Source of the DNA: a virus
Direction: 5' to 3' (one strand)
Virus record (IMG/VR): IMGVR_UViG_3300032240_000589
Location: 1-21,114 of that record
Length of the DNA: 21,114 nt
The notes under the pieces are model-generated. The model did no database searches. It worked only from the letters and a program-made list of their open reading frames with translations, and was not told the DNA's origin. Of this stretch, positions 2,309-21,114 are shown piece after piece. The number at the start of each line of letters is the position of its first letter. Position 1 is the stretch's first letter. The position numbers were made by a program, and so were the translations under genes.

Positions 2309-2348
2309 AAAAAAAGAGTAGAGACACAAAGTATATATGTCTCCACTC
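2309..2348 (-). terminator. Intrinsic terminator after the HTH gene
   Basis: Read on the minus strand, GAGTGGAGACA pairs with TGTCTCTACTC (11 bp with one G-T wobble) across an 11-base loop, followed directly by seven T residues. It starts 19 bases after the HTH stop codon and ends 11 bases before the glycosyltransferase start, so it separates the HTH gene from the clamp operon. The plus strand has no T-run on its exit side, so it should work in one direction only. Confidence 0.88.
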
Positions 2349-2367
2349 CGCAAAGTTTTAAACTAAT

Positions 2368-2622
2368 TTAGGCAAATGCTTGTGCGCCCATCAATGAGTA
2401 GGCTGCTGCTACCATCGCACGACTAGGTGTACCTAAACGATATACTGTAGCACCGTTTTTGGTTTTGTTTTTGTAGATGCTATAACCTTCTGCACGAAGT
2501 TCAGCAATACGTGCTGGCAAATTTGCTACACCAAAACGGGTACGGGCTTGACCTTCAGTGATATCTTTACCTGATTTAAAAAACTCAACCAGTTTTTCAT
2601 TTTGAGATTTTGTTACCGACAT
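2368..2622 (-). CDS. Small helix-turn-helix protein (84 aa), putative transcription regulator
   Basis: This compact basic protein has a winged-helix look. Helices cover about residues 5-17 (QNEKLVEFFKSG) and 20-30 (ITEGQARTRFG). A recognition-helix-like 'NLPARIAELRAEGYSI' is at 33-48, and then comes a wing 'NKTKNGATVYRLG'. 'ARIAELRAEGYxI' is typical of the phage helix-turn-helix family HTH_39. The C-terminus is a hydrophobic Ala/Met-rich tail. The gene has its own strong promoter with a palindrome inside it and is closed by a terminator, so it is a single-gene unit. I infer it is a small DNA-binding regulator that may act on its own promoter or on the adjacent AAA+/VWA promoters. The ribosome site is TATGGAGT. 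Confidence 0.8.
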   Translation of the reverse strand: MSVTKSQNEKLVEFFKSGKDITEGQARTRFGVANLPARIAELRAEGYSIYKNKTKNGATVYRLGTPSRAMVAAAYSLMGAQAFA

Positions 2623-2640
2623 AATGTAACTCCATAATTA

Positions 2641-2686: not shown

Positions 2687-2715
2687 ATTATGACACAGGC
2701 TTGCACCTGTGTCAA
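2687..2715 (-). promoter_or_regulatory. Sigma70-type promoter of the HTH gene with a palindrome in its spacer
   Basis: On the minus strand: TTGACA (2715-2710), a spacer of exactly 17, then CATAAT (2692-2687). A perfect 9-base inverted repeat, TGACACAGG / CCTGTGTCA with a 6-base loop (2691-2714), fills the whole region from -35 to -10. A dyad placed like this is typical of a repressor operator. As RNA it would be a hairpin without a T-run, so a terminator is less likely. The promoter drives the HTH gene that follows. Confidence 0.82.
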
Positions 2716-2737
2716 TGGTTTAAGTGGTAATGATGAA

Positions 2738-3925
2738 TTAGAAGGGTACTTCTACCGAAGGGTCTGCTACTTCTGGTGTTGGTGCAGGCACTGTTGGATC
2801 CACACCAGCATCAATCTTAGTATACAGATCAAGGAAGGTAACTTTCGTATCGGTATCAAAACGATTCAAGCAGAACTGAATCGCTTTCAATTTATTACCG
2901 AAGATACCGTAGGTCTTTACAATGTGTACCAGACGGCGTGTTGAAATAACCTCATCGCAACCACCCTCATCAAATGTACTACGGATTACTGTAGCCCATG
3001 AAACAAGTTTATCGGCAAAATCTTTATCTTCTTTACCGACAGATTCTAATTCTTTAGCAACAATTTTTTTCTCAACTGATGCTGGCGCCCATTCTTGTTC
3101 GAATGTATTTGGGAAACGTTCAAGGAATGCTTCATTCAGAACATTGGTAAACATATAGCGACCATCTTCTGAACCTTTACCTTTTGTATTTGCAGTAGCA
3201 AACACTGTAAAGCCTTCAGCAGGTGTGATTAACTCATTCTTTTTCTTTAGCAAGAATGGTTTACCTTCAAATACACGTTGTAAGCATGACAGATTATTTG
3301 AGCCGTAGTCAATCTCATCAATACAGAGTACAGCACCTTGGCGGGCCGCAAGAGTAACTGGACCGTCACGCCATTCCATCTGACCGTTAATCAGAACATA
3401 GTTACCAAGCAGATCACCCTCATCGGTATCTGGTGTCATTGATACGCAAACGAATTTGCGTTTTGCTTTGGCACAAGCCTGTTCGATTGACATTGTTTTA
3501 CCGTTGCCAGAAGGACCAGTGACAAAGACAGGGAAGAACTGTTTTGATTGTATGATTGACAACATATCTTCAAAGTTGCCAAAAGGAACATAGTTGTTAT
3601 ATTTGACAGGCACTAAGTCTTCCATCTCAAGTTCTGTTATCACATTCGCAATCCGATTACCAGACTTAGATTCTACGGGTTTTGACATAGGTAATACCTG
3701 TGCTGAGAGTTCTATAACGGGCGCTGGAGCCGTCGAATTAACTGCGGAGGGTACACGATACAGACCACGACCTACGCGGTTTGTCTCATCTTTTGTGAAC
3801 CATTGCGGACTTGCTAACCCTAACTTTTTAGCAAGGTCTTTTGCTTCTTGACGGGTTACTGTTGTCTTACCTGTAAGGATAAGAGCATTAATAAATTTAC
3901 TACGCACATCGGAACGACTAGCCAT
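2738..3925 (-). CDS. MoxR/CobS-type AAA+ ATPase (395 aa)
   Basis: This is a single AAA+ ATPase of the MoxR/CbbQ/CobS type. Walker A GPSGNGKT is at 137-144, Walker B VLCIDEID at 199-206 and sensor-1 ATAN at 243-246. An arginine-finger-like FLERF is near 268. 'SMTPDTDEGDLLGNY' before Walker B is characteristic of CobS/MoxR proteins. The first 60 residues form a separate domain that looks like a small helix-turn-helix or winged helix, followed by a Pro/Ala linker. The C-terminus is Pro-rich. T4-like aquatic phages often carry this gene labelled cobS, but MoxR ATPases generally work with a VWA partner, and one is encoded immediately upstream. I infer a two-part remodelling machine. The gene has its own consensus promoter and a GGAGTTT ribosome site. 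Confidence 0.92.
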   Translation of the reverse strand: MASRSDVRSKFINALILTGKTTVTRQEAKDLAKKLGLASPQWFTKDETNRVGRGLYRVPSAVNSTAPAPVIELSAQVLPMSKPVESKSGNRIANVITELEMEDLVPVKYNNYVPFGNFEDMLSIIQSKQFFPVFVTGPSGNGKTMSIEQACAKAKRKFVCVSMTPDTDEGDLLGNYVLINGQMEWRDGPVTLAARQGAVLCIDEIDYGSNNLSCLQRVFEGKPFLLKKKNELITPAEGFTVFATANTKGKGSEDGRYMFTNVLNEAFLERFPNTFEQEWAPASVEKKIVAKELESVGKEDKDFADKLVSWATVIRSTFDEGGCDEVISTRRLVHIVKTYGIFGNKLKAIQFCLNRFDTDTKVTFLDLYTKIDAGVDPTVPAPTPEVADPSVEVPF

Positions 3926-3956: not shown

Positions 3957-3985
3957 ATTATAAATGGTACCCGACCGTTTGTCAA
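3957..3985 (-). promoter_or_regulatory. Consensus sigma70 promoter of the MoxR-type gene
   Basis: Minus strand TTGACA (3985-3980), 17-base spacer, TATAAT (3962-3957): both hexamers and the spacing match the bacterial housekeeping consensus. It lies in the short gap between the VWA stop and the MoxR start. The predicted transcript would begin about 3950, leaving a leader of roughly 25 bases that contains the ribosome site. It is expected to be read early by host polymerase. Confidence 0.93.
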
Positions 3986-3997
3986 GTGGTCGGGCAC
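3967..3997 (-). repeat. Inverted repeat around the -35 box of the MoxR promoter
   Basis: Minus strand GTGCCCGACC and GGTCGGGTAC form a 10-base stem with one G-T pair; the 11-base loop contains the -35 hexamer TTGACA. It starts four bases after the VWA stop codon. It may be an operator, or an RNA hairpin at the 3' end of the VWA message. A T-run is missing, so a standard terminator is not supported. Confidence 0.6.
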
Positions 3998-4000
3998 TTA

Positions 4001-6283
4001 TCAAACTGCTATCTGTGTTATGAACCTTGACACTAACACACGGTTAATCTGACGGGTCTTATTGAATTTCATGAATGCTTTGGTAAGTGTTGCTGTTGTT
4101 GCCTTACCGTTCACTTCAAAAACTTCATCTTCAACTGACAGATCAGAACCAGCAGGTAAAATATAAAAAGAATCGTAACCTACATTTTTTGATTCAAGGT
4201 ACTTTTCTTTCTTCAATTTCTTCACATACTTTGCAAGAATTTCATTTGCTTCATGGTACTTGTGACGGACTGCATTCAAATCATCAGCAAACATACGGCG
4301 CTTCAATGCCAACTTAGCACTGGTGATTGGTGTCAGATAGAAACCAACAATCTTGGTACCAGTTGTTTTCTGCAACCACTCACATATACCTTCACGAACA
4401 TCATCCTCACCAGCCTTCAGATTTACTTGCACTTTGTTTTTCTTATCGACCAGAAAAACGTTTTGATTGTTTGAATCAAAATATTTTGCTTTCTCAGCAT
4501 TTTGTGCATTGAACCAGCATATCGTATCAGCATCACCATCGTGAACGATTGTGGTATTTACAATATCAAGATTATTGGCACGGCGAAACTCTTTGATGAT
4601 TGGTTGCATAGCAATCAATGCTTCGGACATCGGTGTATTTGATAATGCATCACATTGTGGACGAAGGAACTTACCACGTGAACCGTTACGATTTGCCCAT
4701 GCATCCATCAAGCAAAGAATGTTCTTTACTGATTTTGAAAACTCTGCATTGTTCATTTTAGAATTGATCATCTCACGAAGATAAATTTCTGAACAACGAA
4801 TTTCACCAACGTTTTCACTGAAGCAACCTGAACTATGACCAAATTTGAAGTTGCCCTCTTCATCAAAGTTACTATTTTTTTCACGTGGATAATCTAAGTC
4901 ACGTAGACCTCGTGCATTACCAAAACCGTATGCTGTAAAAGGAATGTTTACTTTACGGCAGAACATTGCAAGAATAAGAATCTGTTCGTATGATGCAGCA
5001 AGATTACCAGCCATCGAACCAGACTTATCTAACAACAACATCATGCCGTGTGATTTACCTTTAGGAACACGCATAATCTTTTTGAAAATACTATCATCAA
5101 TCTGGTACTTGTAAATTTTGTTTACGTCAATGTCACCAGTCTCGGATACTTTTGCTTTTGCAAACTTGGATGCTGCTTTACGCATTTCAAATTCTTTTGC
5201 CAACAAAGAAATATAACGTTCATTCTTTTTACGGAACTCATTATACAATTCGTTAGCACCGCTACCGTATGCTACAGTACCGCATTGAGCAACAAAGGCT
5301 TCGGTCAACAATTCTTGAACACGTTTTGCAGGTGTCACGATTCTTTGCAGATTTGGCGTAGGAATATTTAAATACACATACTCACGTGCCTTAGCAGCAA
5401 TCAATGACGATTCATTCTTACGGAAGTTGTCATCAGTCTCACAAGTTGGTTCAAAATCCTCATCAGTACCAGTGGATTCTTTGTTGCGATTGATGATATC
5501 GGTTAGTTCATCATCTTCACCATCTTCATCATCTTCACCATCACCAGAACTTTTGCCTTCTGCTTCATCACCATCTTCATCAAGGTTGCCCTTAGACTTA
5601 CTTTCTTCTTCACCTTCACCATCAGTTTCGGTATCACCGTCACCTTGACCAGATTCAGAATCATCACCGTCACCAGATTCACCAGCACGGTAATCATACT
5701 CTTCAGGCAATTCATTTTCTTGCTGTTCTTTTTTAGAGTAATCCCAAACTTCATTGGTAACTCGGAGAACATCATCCCATGTTTCACATTCTTTAACTTT
5801 TTCAACCATCACCAATTCATCATCAGTGAATTGAATGTCCATTGTATAACCAGACTTGGTAAAAATATTCAAGCGGTCAATAAATGTCATGGTATTAACA
5901 TCACGATCTGTGATACCAAAAAAATCACGCTTCATTAATTCATCATAACCTTTGATGAATGATGAACGAAGGCCAGGGTAACGGCGCTTCTGGCGTTTCT
6001 CAATACGTGCATCTTCAACTACATTTAAGAACCCTTTATAGTTCTTACCCATAGCGTGGACTGCATCATGCCAACCGTCAGATGGTGTGTCTAATGCGTG
6101 ACCGACTTCATGACCCATCAATAAATCGTATAGGTCGCCTGACATATCTTCCCAGATAGGGCAATAGAGTACACGATTTTTAGGATCGAATGCTGCCGTA
6201 GAAATTTTTTGATGCTGGATTGTAAGATTCTCAGTAGCCAGCAATTTTGCTAGACCTGATTTTTGATTTTGAATGTTGCTCAT
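4001..6283 (-). CDS. Metallopeptidase-like/VWA domain protein, CobT-like (760 aa)
   Basis: The protein has three parts. The N-terminal third (1-185) contains HEVGH at 58-62, a zincin-type HExxH, with 'NVVEDARIEK' about 25 residues later supplying a possible third ligand (E90). Residues 185-290 are an Asp/Glu/Gly/Ser-rich acidic linker. The C-terminal half holds a von Willebrand A domain with MIDAS residues D419-x-S421-x-S423, T550 and an Asp in HDGD near 582. VWA proteins of this CobT/YehP-like type are partners of MoxR ATPases, and one follows immediately. I chose the ATG at 6283; the frame extends five codons to a TTG that lacks support. The gene has its own promoter. A literal cobalt-chelatase role is doubtful because no CobN is visible here. 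Confidence 0.88.
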   Translation of the reverse strand: MSNIQNQKSGLAKLLATENLTIQHQKISTAAFDPKNRVLYCPIWEDMSGDLYDLLMGHEVGHALDTPSDGWHDAVHAMGKNYKGFLNVVEDARIEKRQKRRYPGLRSSFIKGYDELMKRDFFGITDRDVNTMTFIDRLNIFTKSGYTMDIQFTDDELVMVEKVKECETWDDVLRVTNEVWDYSKKEQQENELPEEYDYRAGESGDGDDSESGQGDGDTETDGEGEEESKSKGNLDEDGDEAEGKSSGDGEDDEDGEDDELTDIINRNKESTGTDEDFEPTCETDDNFRKNESSLIAAKAREYVYLNIPTPNLQRIVTPAKRVQELLTEAFVAQCGTVAYGSGANELYNEFRKKNERYISLLAKEFEMRKAASKFAKAKVSETGDIDVNKIYKYQIDDSIFKKIMRVPKGKSHGMMLLLDKSGSMAGNLAASYEQILILAMFCRKVNIPFTAYGFGNARGLRDLDYPREKNSNFDEEGNFKFGHSSGCFSENVGEIRCSEIYLREMINSKMNNAEFSKSVKNILCLMDAWANRNGSRGKFLRPQCDALSNTPMSEALIAMQPIIKEFRRANNLDIVNTTIVHDGDADTICWFNAQNAEKAKYFDSNNQNVFLVDKKNKVQVNLKAGEDDVREGICEWLQKTTGTKIVGFYLTPITSAKLALKRRMFADDLNAVRHKYHEANEILAKYVKKLKKEKYLESKNVGYDSFYILPAGSDLSVEDEVFEVNGKATTATLTKAFMKFNKTRQINRVLVSRFITQIAV

Positions 6284-6298
6284 TTGATATCCAATCAA

Positions 6299-6475
6299 CT
6301 ATTGAACTAACATTGTATCTGGGACCACGACATTTGTCAAGTGGGTTATAAGGTGTGACGGCAACACTTCTGCTAGTATATCTATACCGTAGGTTGATAT
6401 TGCATTCTTGATATCAAGAATAGCAAATTGATAATCCATTTCATTTCTGTCAACTAACTCTTGTAATTTTGACAT
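6299..6475 (-). CDS. Small protein of unknown function (58 aa)
   Basis: This short open frame (MSKLQELVDRNEMDYQFAIL...) has a strong ribosome site, AGGAG, six bases before its ATG, and a promoter just upstream. It ends with TAG at 6301-6299, 15 bases before the VWA start codon. The first half is predicted amphipathic-helical; I recognise no family. The last 15 or so codons overlap the VWA gene's promoter, so that part is under double constraint or may be incidental. Support for it being a gene rests on the ribosome site, the promoter and the gapless fit between neighbours. Confidence 0.6.
   Translation of the reverse strand: MSKLQELVDRNEMDYQFAILDIKNAISTYGIDILAEVLPSHLITHLTNVVVPDTMLVQ
6312..6340 (-). 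promoter_or_regulatory. Sigma70-type promoter of the VWA gene
   Basis: Minus strand TTGACA (6340-6335), 17-base spacer, TACAAT (6317-6312). It lies inside the 3' end of the 58-aa gene. From the -35 box to the ribosome site (6340-6290) it aligns without gaps to the MoxR promoter and leader (3985-3935), matching at about 38 of 51 positions by my count, so the two are probably copies. Confidence 0.85.
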
Positions 6476-6502
6476 TTTTTCTCCTAATCAATCAATATAC
6501 GT

Positions 6503-6531
6503 ATTGTCTCATAGGTACCGCTAATTGTCAA
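6503..6531 (-). promoter_or_regulatory. Sigma70-type promoter of the 58-aa gene upstream of the VWA gene
   Basis: Minus strand TTGACA (6531-6526), 17-base spacer, GACAAT (6508-6503). The spacer contains GGTACC, as does the MoxR promoter spacer, though shifted by two bases. It follows the CmoA-like stop codon and would restart transcription for the small gene and the VWA gene. Confidence 0.72.
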
Positions 6532-6536
6532 GCCCT

Positions 6537-7217
6537 CTATTTTATTGCAATAAAAGCAACAAAGCCATAGTTCTGCCAGAATGATTCTATTTTCTGAAAA
6601 CAAAATCCAACAGTGGCACATTTGTTGATTAACTCATTTCTCGTATTCAACTTCATCATGTGGCGCAACTGTCTTTCTTTATTTAGAATATCATCAGATG
6701 TGAAGTGCTCTCGTTTGTAATCGTAGTATGTAAAAGTTCTTATCTCATTTATTCTGGCACACTCCGATACAGTTTTCTCAGCAAAGATAAATGCACCGCC
6801 AGGATTTAAGCCATCATAGATTTGTCGAATGACACTTGTTCTTGCGGCCTCAGGTATAAATTGCAAAGTGAAGATTGAAGTTACCAAAGAACAATTCTTA
6901 AATTCAAAGTCACGAACATCACCTTTAAAGTATTTAAGATTAGAAAATTCTTTTTCATCTGCTTCATATGTAGGAAAGAAATCTTCTTCTACTTCAATAC
7001 CAAAGTAGTTTGCTTTAGGTGCAAAGGTGTTCTGATCTATCATTGCCTTCAACAGTTTACCTGTTGAGCAACCAACATCAACAACCGATGCTTCATCTTC
7101 AACAAAGTATTCCGAATACTTCAATACATCATTCCATAGATTGCTATAACCACGAATAGAATGTTCTATGTGATTATCGAAACCTTCTTCTCTCTGTGCG
7201 AATGTAAACTTAGTCAT
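6537..7217 (-). CDS. CmoA-like carboxy-S-adenosylmethionine synthase (226 aa)
   Basis: This class I SAM-binding protein matches CmoA rather than a generic methyltransferase. 'HSIRGYSNLW' (19-28) parallels CmoA 'RSVPGYSNII', the SAM loop is VDVGCSTG (46-53), and 'FTLQF' (116-120) and 'IYDGLNPGGAFIFAEK' (133-148) follow. Then come 'YYDYKRE' and 'KERQLRHMM' (180-188). R182 aligns by eye with E. coli CmoA Arg199, which contacts the carboxylate. CmoA converts SAM plus prephenate to carboxy-SAM, normally for CmoB in tRNA wobble-uridine modification. No CmoB gene lies in the window. Instead the start overlaps the DNA methyltransferase stop as ATGA, suggesting carboxy-SAM is made for that enzyme. An ordinary methyltransferase remains possible. 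Confidence 0.85.
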   Translation of the reverse strand: MTKFTFAQREEGFDNHIEHSIRGYSNLWNDVLKYSEYFVEDEASVVDVGCSTGKLLKAMIDQNTFAPKANYFGIEVEEDFFPTYEADEKEFSNLKYFKGDVRDFEFKNCSLVTSIFTLQFIPEAARTSVIRQIYDGLNPGGAFIFAEKTVSECARINEIRTFTYYDYKREHFTSDDILNKERQLRHMMKLNTRNELINKCATVGFCFQKIESFWQNYGFVAFIAIK

Positions 7218-8449
7218 AGCGATTCCTTGTAGGGCTTCAATATATTTTCATAAATGTTTGATGCTAATGCTGCCATCATCTTCGGTGCAACCATACGTCC
7301 AAGTCGTTCTGCTTTCTGATCGAATGTTCCAGTCAGTATATAATCATCTGGAATGCTCATCAGTATTTTTAATTCTTTGATTGTCAACTTACGATTCTTA
7401 GCATAGTGAAATACACCACTTACACCTTTCTGTTGACCTGCTTGTGTCAATGTAGGTGATGGTAATTGAATCGCTGGTCGAATCATATTGAAACACGAAC
7501 CCTTGGGATTCTTATCACGAAACTCTGGGTCAGATGGTTTAGTGTGTCTAGTTGGATTGAAAGGTAGTAACTCAACGAACTTTTTCTGAAACGAACCTTC
7601 AACGAAATCTAACAGTTCTTTTTCTTCTTCTGGATCATTTTCAATATGATCGATAGCATCTTTGATACCTATGTGTTTTGACAGTGTGGGTGGTCTAGTC
7701 ATCGACTCTAAATTTAGAAAGTTTATACCGACAGCATCAGCAACATCTTGACGAACACACACAAAGAATAATCGTTCACGTGCTTGTGGTACACCATAAT
7801 CAGCAGCATTCAACACATGGTGTGTTACAAGATAACCTGGTTCGATTTTTTCAAATGCATTCTGAAAATCAAAAAGTTTTTTACGGGCCTCACCCATAGT
7901 AATGCCTTTGACATTCTCTGCAATGATAATCTTGGGTTGCATCTCTTTTGCTACACGAATATACTCAAAGAATAAATCTTCAATTGCTTCTACAGTCTGA
8001 TCATCAGAATATTGTTTTACACCAGTTTTAACTTCGACTTCACCTTCAGATATTACTTCACCAGTTTCAAAATCAAAATGACTTTCGGTAGTATCTTTGA
8101 CTGCACCTTTCCAATTCTTTTCACGTTTACCTGCAACTGAAAATGCAGAACATGGCGGTGAACCATCAAGTATATCTAACTCACCAACTTCTAAATTACC
8201 AGCATCAAGAAAATCTTTACCACTGATCTTCTTGATATCGCCTGGAATTACTATAGTGTCTGGGAAATTTGTAGAGTATGTTTTGATTGCTTCTTCCACA
8301 AACTCATTGATAGCAATCACTTTGCCACCAGCAAGTCTATAACCTGTCGAACTGCCACCACCACCAGCAAATGTACTGACTACGGTAAACAGTTTACGGG
8401 CAGAAGATTTTTTTACATCATCAATTGAATAGTGTTCGTACTTCAGCAT
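7214..8449 (-). CDS. Cytosine-C5 DNA methyltransferase family enzyme with Arg in motif X (411 aa)
   Basis: The conserved C5-methyltransferase motifs appear in order: motif I 'FAGGGGSSTGYRLAGG' (27-42), motif IV 'GSPPCSAFS' with catalytic C100, motif VI 'ENVKG' (178-182), motif VIII 'QARERLFFV' (222-230), a target-recognition region at about 245-350, and motif X 'ERLGRMVAPKM' (381-391). Motif X normally reads GN(A/S)V-P-P; here the Asn is Arg (R385, codon 7295-7297). An acidic insert at 112-150 follows motif IV. I start at 8449 because GGAAAG precedes that ATG at good distance; an ATG at 8473 lacks a site and lies deeper in the upstream gene. It overlaps the PP-loop gene and, by ATGA, the CmoA-like gene. 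With those neighbours it may transfer carboxymethyl rather than methyl groups. Confidence 0.93.
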   Translation of the reverse strand: MLKYEHYSIDDVKKSSARKLFTVVSTFAGGGGSSTGYRLAGGKVIAINEFVEEAIKTYSTNFPDTIVIPGDIKKISGKDFLDAGNLEVGELDILDGSPPCSAFSVAGKREKNWKGAVKDTTESHFDFETGEVISEGEVEVKTGVKQYSDDQTVEAIEDLFFEYIRVAKEMQPKIIIAENVKGITMGEARKKLFDFQNAFEKIEPGYLVTHHVLNAADYGVPQARERLFFVCVRQDVADAVGINFLNLESMTRPPTLSKHIGIKDAIDHIENDPEEEKELLDFVEGSFQKKFVELLPFNPTRHTKPSDPEFRDKNPKGSCFNMIRPAIQLPSPTLTQAGQQKGVSGVFHYAKNRKLTIKELKILMSIPDDYILTGTFDQKAERLGRMVAPKMMAALASNIYENILKPYKESL

Positions 8450-19894: not shown

Positions 19895-19923
19895 AAAAAA
19901 AGGGGGAGAATTTCTTCTCCCCC
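19895..19923 (-). terminator. Strong intrinsic terminator after major capsid gene
   Basis: Minus strand GGGGGAGAA-GAAA-TTCTCCCCC is a perfect 9-bp GC-rich stem closed by a GNRA-type GAAA tetraloop and followed by seven T residues. It follows the gp23 stop by 41 bases and immediately precedes the next late promoter, so it isolates the capsid transcript from downstream genes. Confidence 0.96.
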
Positions 19924-19964: not shown

Positions 19965-21114
19965 TTACATCAAGTTAGTGATACCGAACGAACGATAGTA
20001 GTTGTTTACACCAACTGTGTCGATACGACCTAAACCTGCGCCAGTACCTTCAGCAAATGGGTTTGCAACCATGCCGTAACGTGTCTTGAAGCCAATCTTA
20101 GGTTGGAATGTACCTGTATCAACAGCACGAACCATTTGCAGAGGAACGTATGGGCAGTAGAACAAACCTGCGTCATAAGCATTCGTACCTTTGTAACCAA
20201 CAACTGCAAATTCAGCAGTAGAGCCAGTTTGTGAATATGGATCGATGTACACTTTGATACGACCGAAGATTGTACCAGCAAATGTATTGCCAGTGTCATC
20301 AACTGTCAACGATACTTGACCAGCAAGTGCTGAGTTGTAATCGAGAATGCCAGCCATTGCCAGAGCAGAAGCAACATCAGAAGAACAAATCATGATGTTA
20401 CCTTTACCGCGACGAGTTGTCTTGGCAATTTGATTTGCTTCACGTTCGATTTGGAATGCCAAACCTTTGATTTTTTCAACCATCCAACGACCGTTCGAAT
20501 CTGTATCCAGATTGAACACGCCCTTAGTAGTTGTGCCTGCTTGTGCGCCACGCTTCGATGTGAAGTAAATTGTACGAATAACTTCACGGTTAATTTCAGC
20601 AAGAATTTCAGCAGACAGGATGTTTGCTAATTCAGTTTCAGCATCCAGACCATGAACTGCTTTCAAGTCTTGTGCCAATTCCATCGAGTATTCTGCTTTC
20701 AGAGCACGGGTCTTAGCAGTAACAGTAACTTTCTCAATCGAGAATGCCATCTGTTGGAATGTGTTACCAGCAGCACCGTCACCCAATGCTTCAGCGGAAC
20801 CAGTAGTCATTGCAGCACCAGAAACAGCGTTACCTACAAATACGTCAGTACCGTTAGCCGAAATAGTCATCGAACCAGCAGTGATAGCACCGTTAGCGCC
20901 AGAGAAGTTTGTATTGGCTTCGTTGTAGAATGCTTCAGTACCGCCTTGTGAGTCGTACTTAGTACGCATTGCAAAGATCAAACCTGTAGGACCAGTCATT
21001 GGCTGAACGCCGCAAAAGTCATAAGCAATCAGATTAGGCAACGAACGACGAACCAAACTGATAAGGATTGGATCGAAACCAGCAACTGGGCCAGCAGCAG
21101 CAGCACCGCCACCG
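19965..21114 (-). CDS. 23: Major capsid protein gp23 (partial, C-terminal 382 residues)
   Basis: The window holds the C-terminal part; the frame continues past the right edge, so the true start is outside. Visible at its beginning is 'GGGAAAAGPVAGFDPILIS', then 'LVRRSLPNLIAYDFCGVQPMTGPTGLIFAMRTKY', nearly identical to T4 gp23 'MVRRTMPQLIAYDLAGVQPMTGPTGLIFAMR'. 'FSIEKVTVTAKTRALKAEYSMELAQDLKAVHGLDAETELANILSAEI' is likewise a hallmark of gp23. The end 'NNYYRSFGITNLM' matches the gp23 C-terminus. It forms the hexamers of the capsid; in T4 a precursor is cut by gp21, whose site would be upstream of this window. A hairpin terminator follows. Confidence 0.97.
   Translation of the reverse strand, partial: GGGAAAAGPVAGFDPILISLVRRSLPNLIAYDFCGVQPMTGPTGLIFAMRTKYDSQGGTEAFYNEANTNFSGANGAITAGSMTISANGTDVFVGNAVSGAAMTTGSAEALGDGAAGNTFQQMAFSIEKVTVTAKTRALKAEYSMELAQDLKAVHGLDAETELANILSAEILAEINREVIRTIYFTSKRGAQAGTTTKGVFNLDTDSNGRWMVEKIKGLAFQIEREANQIAKTTRRGKGNIMICSSDVASALAMAGILDYNSALAGQVSLTVDDTGNTFAGTIFGRIKVYIDPYSQTGSTAEFAVVGYKGTNAYDAGLFYCPYVPLQMVRAVDTGTFQPKIGFKTRYGMVANPFAEGTGAGLGRIDTVGVNNYYRSFGITNLM

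Follow-up and report, generated by a model that had tools for sequence, protein, structure and literature searches.

A stem-loop promoter and a covarying leader pseudoknot before a small winged-helix gene of T4-like phages: a candidate genetic switch

Background

What is a perfect palindrome doing in the spacer of a promoter that drives a small regulator-like gene? The locus lies in a 21,114-base virus record from a T4-like phage, which was analysed at full length and is called the window here. Its minus strand encodes a gp45-like clamp, a gp55-like late sigma factor and a UvsW-like helicase, together with a tail-tube protein, a CobS-like AAA ATPase and a large 'peptidase'. Judged by the 84-aa gene behind the promoter, the nearest annotated phages were Stenotrophomonas phage DLP_6, the Pelagibacter phages HTVC008M and Mosig, and Methylophilales phage Melnitz (11 records). 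A sequence-only reading had proposed that the palindrome is an autoregulated operator, with a weaker dyad nearby as a possible second site. According to the present analysis, two stacked control elements, a promoter stem-loop cassette and a leader pseudoknot, probably serve this one small regulator gene.

Results

The promoter and its palindrome

The palindrome was located between the CobS-like gene (phrog_249; 2738-3925, minus strand), whose stop codon at 2738 ends 23 nt before it, and the 84-aa gene (2368-2622, minus strand), which was assigned to HTH_39 (PF14090) and phrog_4973 by profile match. A promoter-like sequence was found at the place named by the sequence-only reading. It lies on the minus strand and has TTGACA at 2715-2710 and CATAAT at 2692-2687, a spacer of 17 nt and agreement with the consensus at 11 of 12 positions; the -35 element is also conserved in relatives. 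The perfect palindrome at 2691-2714 was likewise confirmed and reads TGACACAGG-CTTGCA-CCTGTGTCA. It does fill the spacer, and its arms reach beyond it, over five bases of the -35 element and two of the -10. Read in the sense (minus) strand, it forms nine Watson-Crick pairs, and its GCAA tetraloop is closed by an additional U-G pair. RNA folding gave -16.6 kcal/mol for the sense hairpin and -14.5 kcal/mol for the antisense one. The gap thus holds two of the features by which promoter-early stem-loops (PeSLs) are recognised, a strong intergenic promoter of the sigma-70 type (TTGACA-17-CATAAT) and a stem-loop overlapping it. Only five T were counted in the ten bases after the stem, and because a clean U-tract is missing (UAAUUGUAUU), intrinsic termination at this hairpin may be weak.

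Taken alone, the palindrome is not rare in the window: three perfect inverted repeats with arms of at least 9 and loops of 3-10 bases were present, and 60 dinucleotide shuffles contained 1.45 on average, 41 of the shuffles having one or more. It rises above chance because it is placed in one of only four promoters in the window that score at least 11/12, and because it is conserved with compensatory changes in relatives. A second copy within 3 mismatches was not found in the 21-kb window. A second composite of stem and promoter was located at 3967-3997 (minus strand), where the stem GTGCCCGACC/GGTCGGGTAC encloses the -35 element of the promoter of the CobS-like gene (TTGACA-17-TATAAT, 3985-3957). 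Far from this locus, a strong terminator-like hairpin (19902-19923, minus strand; stem GGGGGAGAA/TTCTCCCCC, GAAA loop and T run) was noticed 3' of the ORF at 19965-21056.

Upstream of the -35 element, an ACC (2726-2728, minus strand) places CC exactly 10 nt before TTGACA. Among 47 distinct upstream sequences of HTH_39 genes, 43 have the CC at exactly this distance from TTGAC, and all 47 have C at -11. This box accompanied 50 of 192 strong promoters in the loci of the clade, compared with 10 of 267 in background contigs, and is possibly an activator or UP-like element. At the other end of the gene, a terminator-like hairpin with a T tract follows directly (2315-2349, minus strand), so that the gene is apparently transcribed as a separate unit.

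The 84-aa protein

The promoter had been said to drive a gene for a small protein of DNA-binding type. The product is indeed a winged helix by profile (Pfam HTH_39, E 2.8e-11), and the AlphaFold2 model predicts a winged helix with a C-terminal helix at a mean pLDDT of 82.3. In a fold search of the PDB, the closest structures were MarR/ArsR-like DNA-binding repressors (E 0.023 at best), followed at lower rank by Oskar LOTUS and a ribosomal protein; the search returned the winged helix only, with nothing better than E 0.02. Since all of these matches are weak, the fold speaks neither for DNA nor for RNA binding. Sequence search of the PDB gave no significant match (best E 0.094), and NCBIfam gave nothing above the cut-off. 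The most conserved residues of the family include a YRLGTP stretch.

Promoter hairpins in relatives and before other genes

The palindrome is kept in all close relatives (L002-L015). One of them (L015) carries symmetric, compensatory changes (ACATAGG/CCTATGT), and the loop is exchanged between U(GCAA)G in the window, C(GCAA)G in L010 and C(UUCG)G in L011, L012 and L014; the three loci with the UUCG loop have a different upstream gene. At the same site, L016 and L017 carry a stem that has the shape of a terminator, with a U tract, and holds the -35 element in its loop, and L065-L068 and L071 carry ACAGATT-GTAATA-AATCTGT. A stem of at least 7 pairs over the promoter was counted in 31 of 68 distinct pseudoknot-bearing HTH_39 upstream regions and was absent in the other 37, under a lenient rule that allowed one G-U pair and admitted some A/T-rich, weak stems. 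The promoter itself is kept in nearly all 68 regions, four having no promoter match and one a poor match.

A scan of IMG/VR with the pattern TTGACAYAG-N8-CTRTGTCATANT returned 34 contigs. As is characteristic of PeSLs, the same element was found at several unrelated genes, namely HTH_39 genes, gp32-like genes and genes adjacent to tRNAs. It preceded genes for gp32-like single-strand-binding proteins in four loci (L100, L104, L113, L114), of which L113 alone was confirmed by Pfam as carrying a member of the gp32 family. In L101, L102, L110 and L115, and in L103, it preceded two other kinds of genes. All five of these latter loci are tRNA-adjacent: in four, TTGACA directly follows the tRNA gene, and in L115 its first base coincides with the last base of that gene. 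Permuted and betaproteobacteria-type tmRNA matches were observed in two contigs with a gp32-like gene and a palindromic promoter (L100:1856-2203, L113:1553-1945).

Sixty distinct hairpin promoters were collected from 203 loci of the clade; their loops include UUCG (6), GAAA (5) and GCAA (2). Counted in the sense of the transcript, 12 imperfect stem pairs were GT, 8 TG, 6 CA and none AC, next to 15 other mismatches. Sense-strand G-T accounted for every imperfect pair, and C-A for none, in the five strongest of the imperfect stems that have a four-base loop. The excess of sense-strand wobble pairs is modest and only suggestive, as the sequences are related and some GT pairs stem from the promoter hexamers. 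Together, the loop types and the sense-strand G-U pairs point to a hairpin made of RNA. The stems at the different loci, the loop types and the varied downstream genes fit a hairpin that acts in RNA made from upstream and is joined to a promoter serving the following gene, which is the idea of the PeSL.

A general enrichment of palindromic spacers in viral contigs was not found. Among the IMG/VR matches listed, 9 of 117 TTGACA-N14-TGTCATAAT sites in viral contigs had at least 3 extra pairs, with about 5.5 expected. A survey of the promoters of Melnitz and RB49 found strong stems in a few spacers only; ORFs were masked in this survey, and the window's own promoter was left out by way of an antisense ORF.

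Some further features of these loci were recorded. About nine early-type promoters of Melnitz (L237-L239) form a phage-wide family: their spacers resemble TTTGTT-N5-AACATG, and most have GCC immediately ahead of TTGAC. Other palindromic promoters of the same clade read TGACAAAGGC-CTAG-GCCTTTGTCA (L091) and TGACAGAGGC-TCAC-GCCTCTGTTA (L011). In L098, the CobS-like gene is separated from the promoter hairpin by a GmrSD_N/HNH_5 gene of 477 aa (6229-7662), and in L096 the hairpin is directly preceded by a gene (4405-5526) whose HNH match stays below the threshold. A Pistol ribozyme (L047:2211-2282; Rfam, 55.8 bits) was detected about 200 nt 3' of the HTH_39 gene of that locus.

A pseudoknot in the leader

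The weaker dyad at 2641-2668 noted beside the promoter is real (GTATCAC at 2641-2647 and GTGATAC at 2662-2668, as read on the given strand). Its proposed role as a second operator did not hold, as its halves form a stem of a predicted RNA pseudoknot. In the minus-strand leader (2675-2641), an H-type pseudoknot was recognised by a finder and by alignment. Stem 1 pairs GAGAG (2671-2675) with CTCTC (2657-2661), and stem 2, which stem 1 directly abuts, pairs GTATCAC (2662-2668) with GTGATAC (2641-2647); loop 1 has 2 nt and loop 3 has 9 nt. The pseudoknot ends 18 nt before the ATG, just before the Shine-Dalgarno-like GGAG (2630-2633, minus strand), and GGAG or a similar sequence also follows the pseudoknot in most relatives. 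Nested folding of the window's leader gave a mixed structure, the nested model being unable to represent a pseudoknot.

Relatives were taken from two IMG/VR protein searches (80 loci of 142 and 80 of 291). Enough upstream sequence was available for 158 loci, which, with the window included, gave 98 distinct regions of 90 nt. The finder, which looks for abutting stems of five or more pairs, scored at least 12 in 67 of the 98 regions, compared with 2.7% of shuffles, and at least 14 in 43, compared with 0.2%. It found no pseudoknot in 21 of the 98 regions; among finder-negative loci, one is visible by eye in L048, L286 and L299, and L311 was misread by the finder. The pseudoknot is absent in the groups L018, L028, L029-L046, L035, L051-L057, L073, L075, L078 and L079.

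For covariation, 54 sequences (the window and 53 of 56 prepared regions) were aligned with MAFFT, blind to structure. The three regions dropped were near-copies of the window's leader; groups with unrelated stems, such as L047, L050, L065 and L074, and weak or chance hits had been left out earlier. Standard pairs filled 94.4% of 863 cells, compared with 34.5-47.5% in slid controls. Double-sided changes occurred in 10 of 16 pairs and amounted to 92 cells against a shuffled mean of 18.9. The covariation score was 0.366, compared with 0.162 +/- 0.011 after shuffling (0 of 500 reached it) and at most 0.100 after sliding. Both helices contribute, stem 1 with five of its nine pairs and stem 2 with five of its seven. 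The excluded groups keep the topology with unrelated sequence, for instance CGGTAATG/CATTATCG with AACCGC/GCGGTT in L065, and likewise in L074, L050 and L047. By alignment column, A14-U34 and C28-G59 are invariant in the 54 sequences; the loops are not conserved in sequence. The leader thus has an H-type pseudoknot backed by covariation, as would be expected of an autogenous element like that of gp32, and the predicted structure is well supported by the comparison of sequences.

Where the distance was measured, the pseudoknot starts 7-11 nt after the -10 element in 56 of 64 regions, which places it at the expected 5' end of the mRNA. Two DNA patterns, which cover the commonest stem sequences only, retrieved 97 elements (18 and 79 contigs), and all 95 with a testable ORF within 100 nt precede an HTH_39 relative. 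In a protein tree of 47 members, 29 of them with the pseudoknot, four changes of state were inferred, and pseudoknots occur in three deep branches.

At the gathering score, Rfam 15 matched nothing in the window, and it did not match the leaders of 20 related loci either; a relaxed threshold added a single hit in the window, to a lncRNA family that is unrelated (E 5). In the literature that was searched, no description of an HTH_39 leader pseudoknot was found. Judged from sequence comparison, the element looks like an undescribed genetic switch.

Discussion

Could the palindrome be an operator after all, at which the 84-aa winged helix, or another repressor of phage or host, binds the 24-bp dyad and shuts the promoter off? 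Such a site has the expected shape, a perfect dyad between -35 and -10, and the best fold matches of the protein, weak as they are, belong to MarR/ArsR-type repressors (E 0.023 at best). The recurrence of the arms TGACACAG/CTGTGTCA at promoters of unrelated genes could be explained by a shared protein binding site, in which case gp32 and the other promoters would form a regulon. However, the dyad was expected to be conserved in related phages with the same gene, and its absence from 37 of 68 distinct regions goes largely against this. In other lineages (L016, L065, L282, L252) unrelated stems stand in its place, the need to pair with the -35 element already accounts for the outer TGACA/TGTCA arms, the 21-kb window holds no further copy within 3 mismatches, and the strongest stems carry tetraloops of RNA type and sense-strand G-U pairs. 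The sharing of the palindromic promoter by unrelated genes and the RNA-type loops and wobble pairs make autoregulation at a DNA operator not the best reading. As the main reading it was set aside on the grounds of distribution, loop types and wobble pairs, and we consider it unlikely. More improbable still is that the stem-loop is mainly a recombination hot spot, a mobile regulatory cassette whose effect on transcription is secondary. This would account for the same 29-bp promoter and hairpin with different neighbours and for the GmrSD_N/HNH and HNH-like genes beside the hairpin in L098 and L096; recombination between PeSLs is reportedly the theme of earlier papers. Yet gene order near HTH_39 is mostly conserved in close relatives, with the CobS-like gene upstream, and the compensatory changes imply selection on pairing that goes beyond homology.

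The pseudoknot, too, has other readings. It might need no specific ligand and stabilise the mRNA by shielding its 5' end from RNase E or pyrophosphohydrolase, as would be allowed by its variable loops and by its start where the mRNA is expected to begin, in most cases 7-11 nt past the -10 element. The association with one gene family suggests a specific partner, however, and so does a stem sequence partly conserved across proteins that are only 37-43% identical to that of the window; we hold a mere shield to be rather unlikely. Pseudoknot riboswitches exist. For related phages, a glutamine riboswitch is reported in the paper on Melnitz (PMC9004378), and the leader might likewise be a small-molecule riboswitch. 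But the loops have no conserved nucleotides of the kind found in aptamers, Rfam is without a match, and the gene is a regulator, not a metabolic gene, so that a riboswitch appears very improbable.

The preferred reading, that of a promoter stem-loop followed by a leader pseudoknot, would work as follows. The palindrome would be a stem-loop built into an early-type sigma-70 promoter, a composite cassette like the PeSLs. Transcripts arriving from the upstream gene would fold the hairpin, which may end, pause or protect them. New transcripts would start just downstream of it, at about 2680, and so lack the hairpin; they would begin almost directly with the H-type pseudoknot (GAGAG/CTCTC, GTATCAC/GTGATAC). 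From its position, the pseudoknot may control the translation, or the stability and decay, of the regulator mRNA. Its ligand could be the winged-helix protein itself, in autogenous control as in gp32. By this analogy, we regard the gene's own product as a possible ligand, though somewhat short of an even chance, and equally tentative is the proposal that the winged-helix protein binds the 5'-end pseudoknot of its own mRNA and represses its own translation.

A pseudoknot backed by covariation and tied to one family of small regulators in uncultured T4-like phages offers a testable second case and a new RNA family. If the proposal is true, T4-like phages would have another autogenous pseudoknot switch next to that of gp32, and in many marine and freshwater phages RNA would be bound by a fold that is commonly classed among the DNA-binding repressors. 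The locus also advises caution with interleaved dyads near promoters, which can belong to an RNA structure instead of being operators.

Comparison with known systems

The promoter hairpin is of a kind already described for T4-like phages. PeSL cassettes of T4-type phages were reportedly described by Arbiol et al. in 2010 and Comeau et al. in 2014, and RB49 is said to be a phage in which they were described; several RB49 promoters were found here to be overlapped by stems. The likeness consists of a strong sigma-70-type promoter and a stem-loop, combined in a short intergenic element that precedes unrelated genes. In contrast to PeSLs, the stem of the window fills the spacer between -35 and -10, pairs with the -35 element, is followed by no strong U-tract and occurs in another phage family. 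Among the annotated relatives, the HTH_39 homologues of HTVC008M and Melnitz lie in similar neighbourhoods, with the peptidase and CobS genes before the gene in HTVC008M and DUF3310 and the gp45 clamp after it in Melnitz. The Melnitz promoter has a spacer hairpin (TACCCTA-GAAA-TAGGGTA), and no pseudoknot was found in the leaders of the two homologues.

For the leader, structured RNAs of marine T4-like phages are represented by the manA and wcaG motifs, as described in PMC2864571. The HTH_39 leader shares with them the occurrence of a structured RNA in T4-like phages; it differs in that the genes are others and no Rfam family matches it. The closest counterpart is the pseudoknot in the gene 32 leader of T4, T2 and RB69, by which gp32 regulates its own translation (PMC3014915). 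Both pseudoknots stack two helices, and both are placed in the leader of an mRNA that encodes a nucleic-acid-binding protein of a T4-type phage. The leader described here differs in that it belongs to an HTH_39 gene, lies 18 nt from the start codon and not 67 nt upstream, is placed at the expected 5' end of the mRNA, and is bound by the protein only putatively. Judged by these likenesses and differences, the T4 gp32 leader is a working analogue of the HTH_39 leader, not a homologue.
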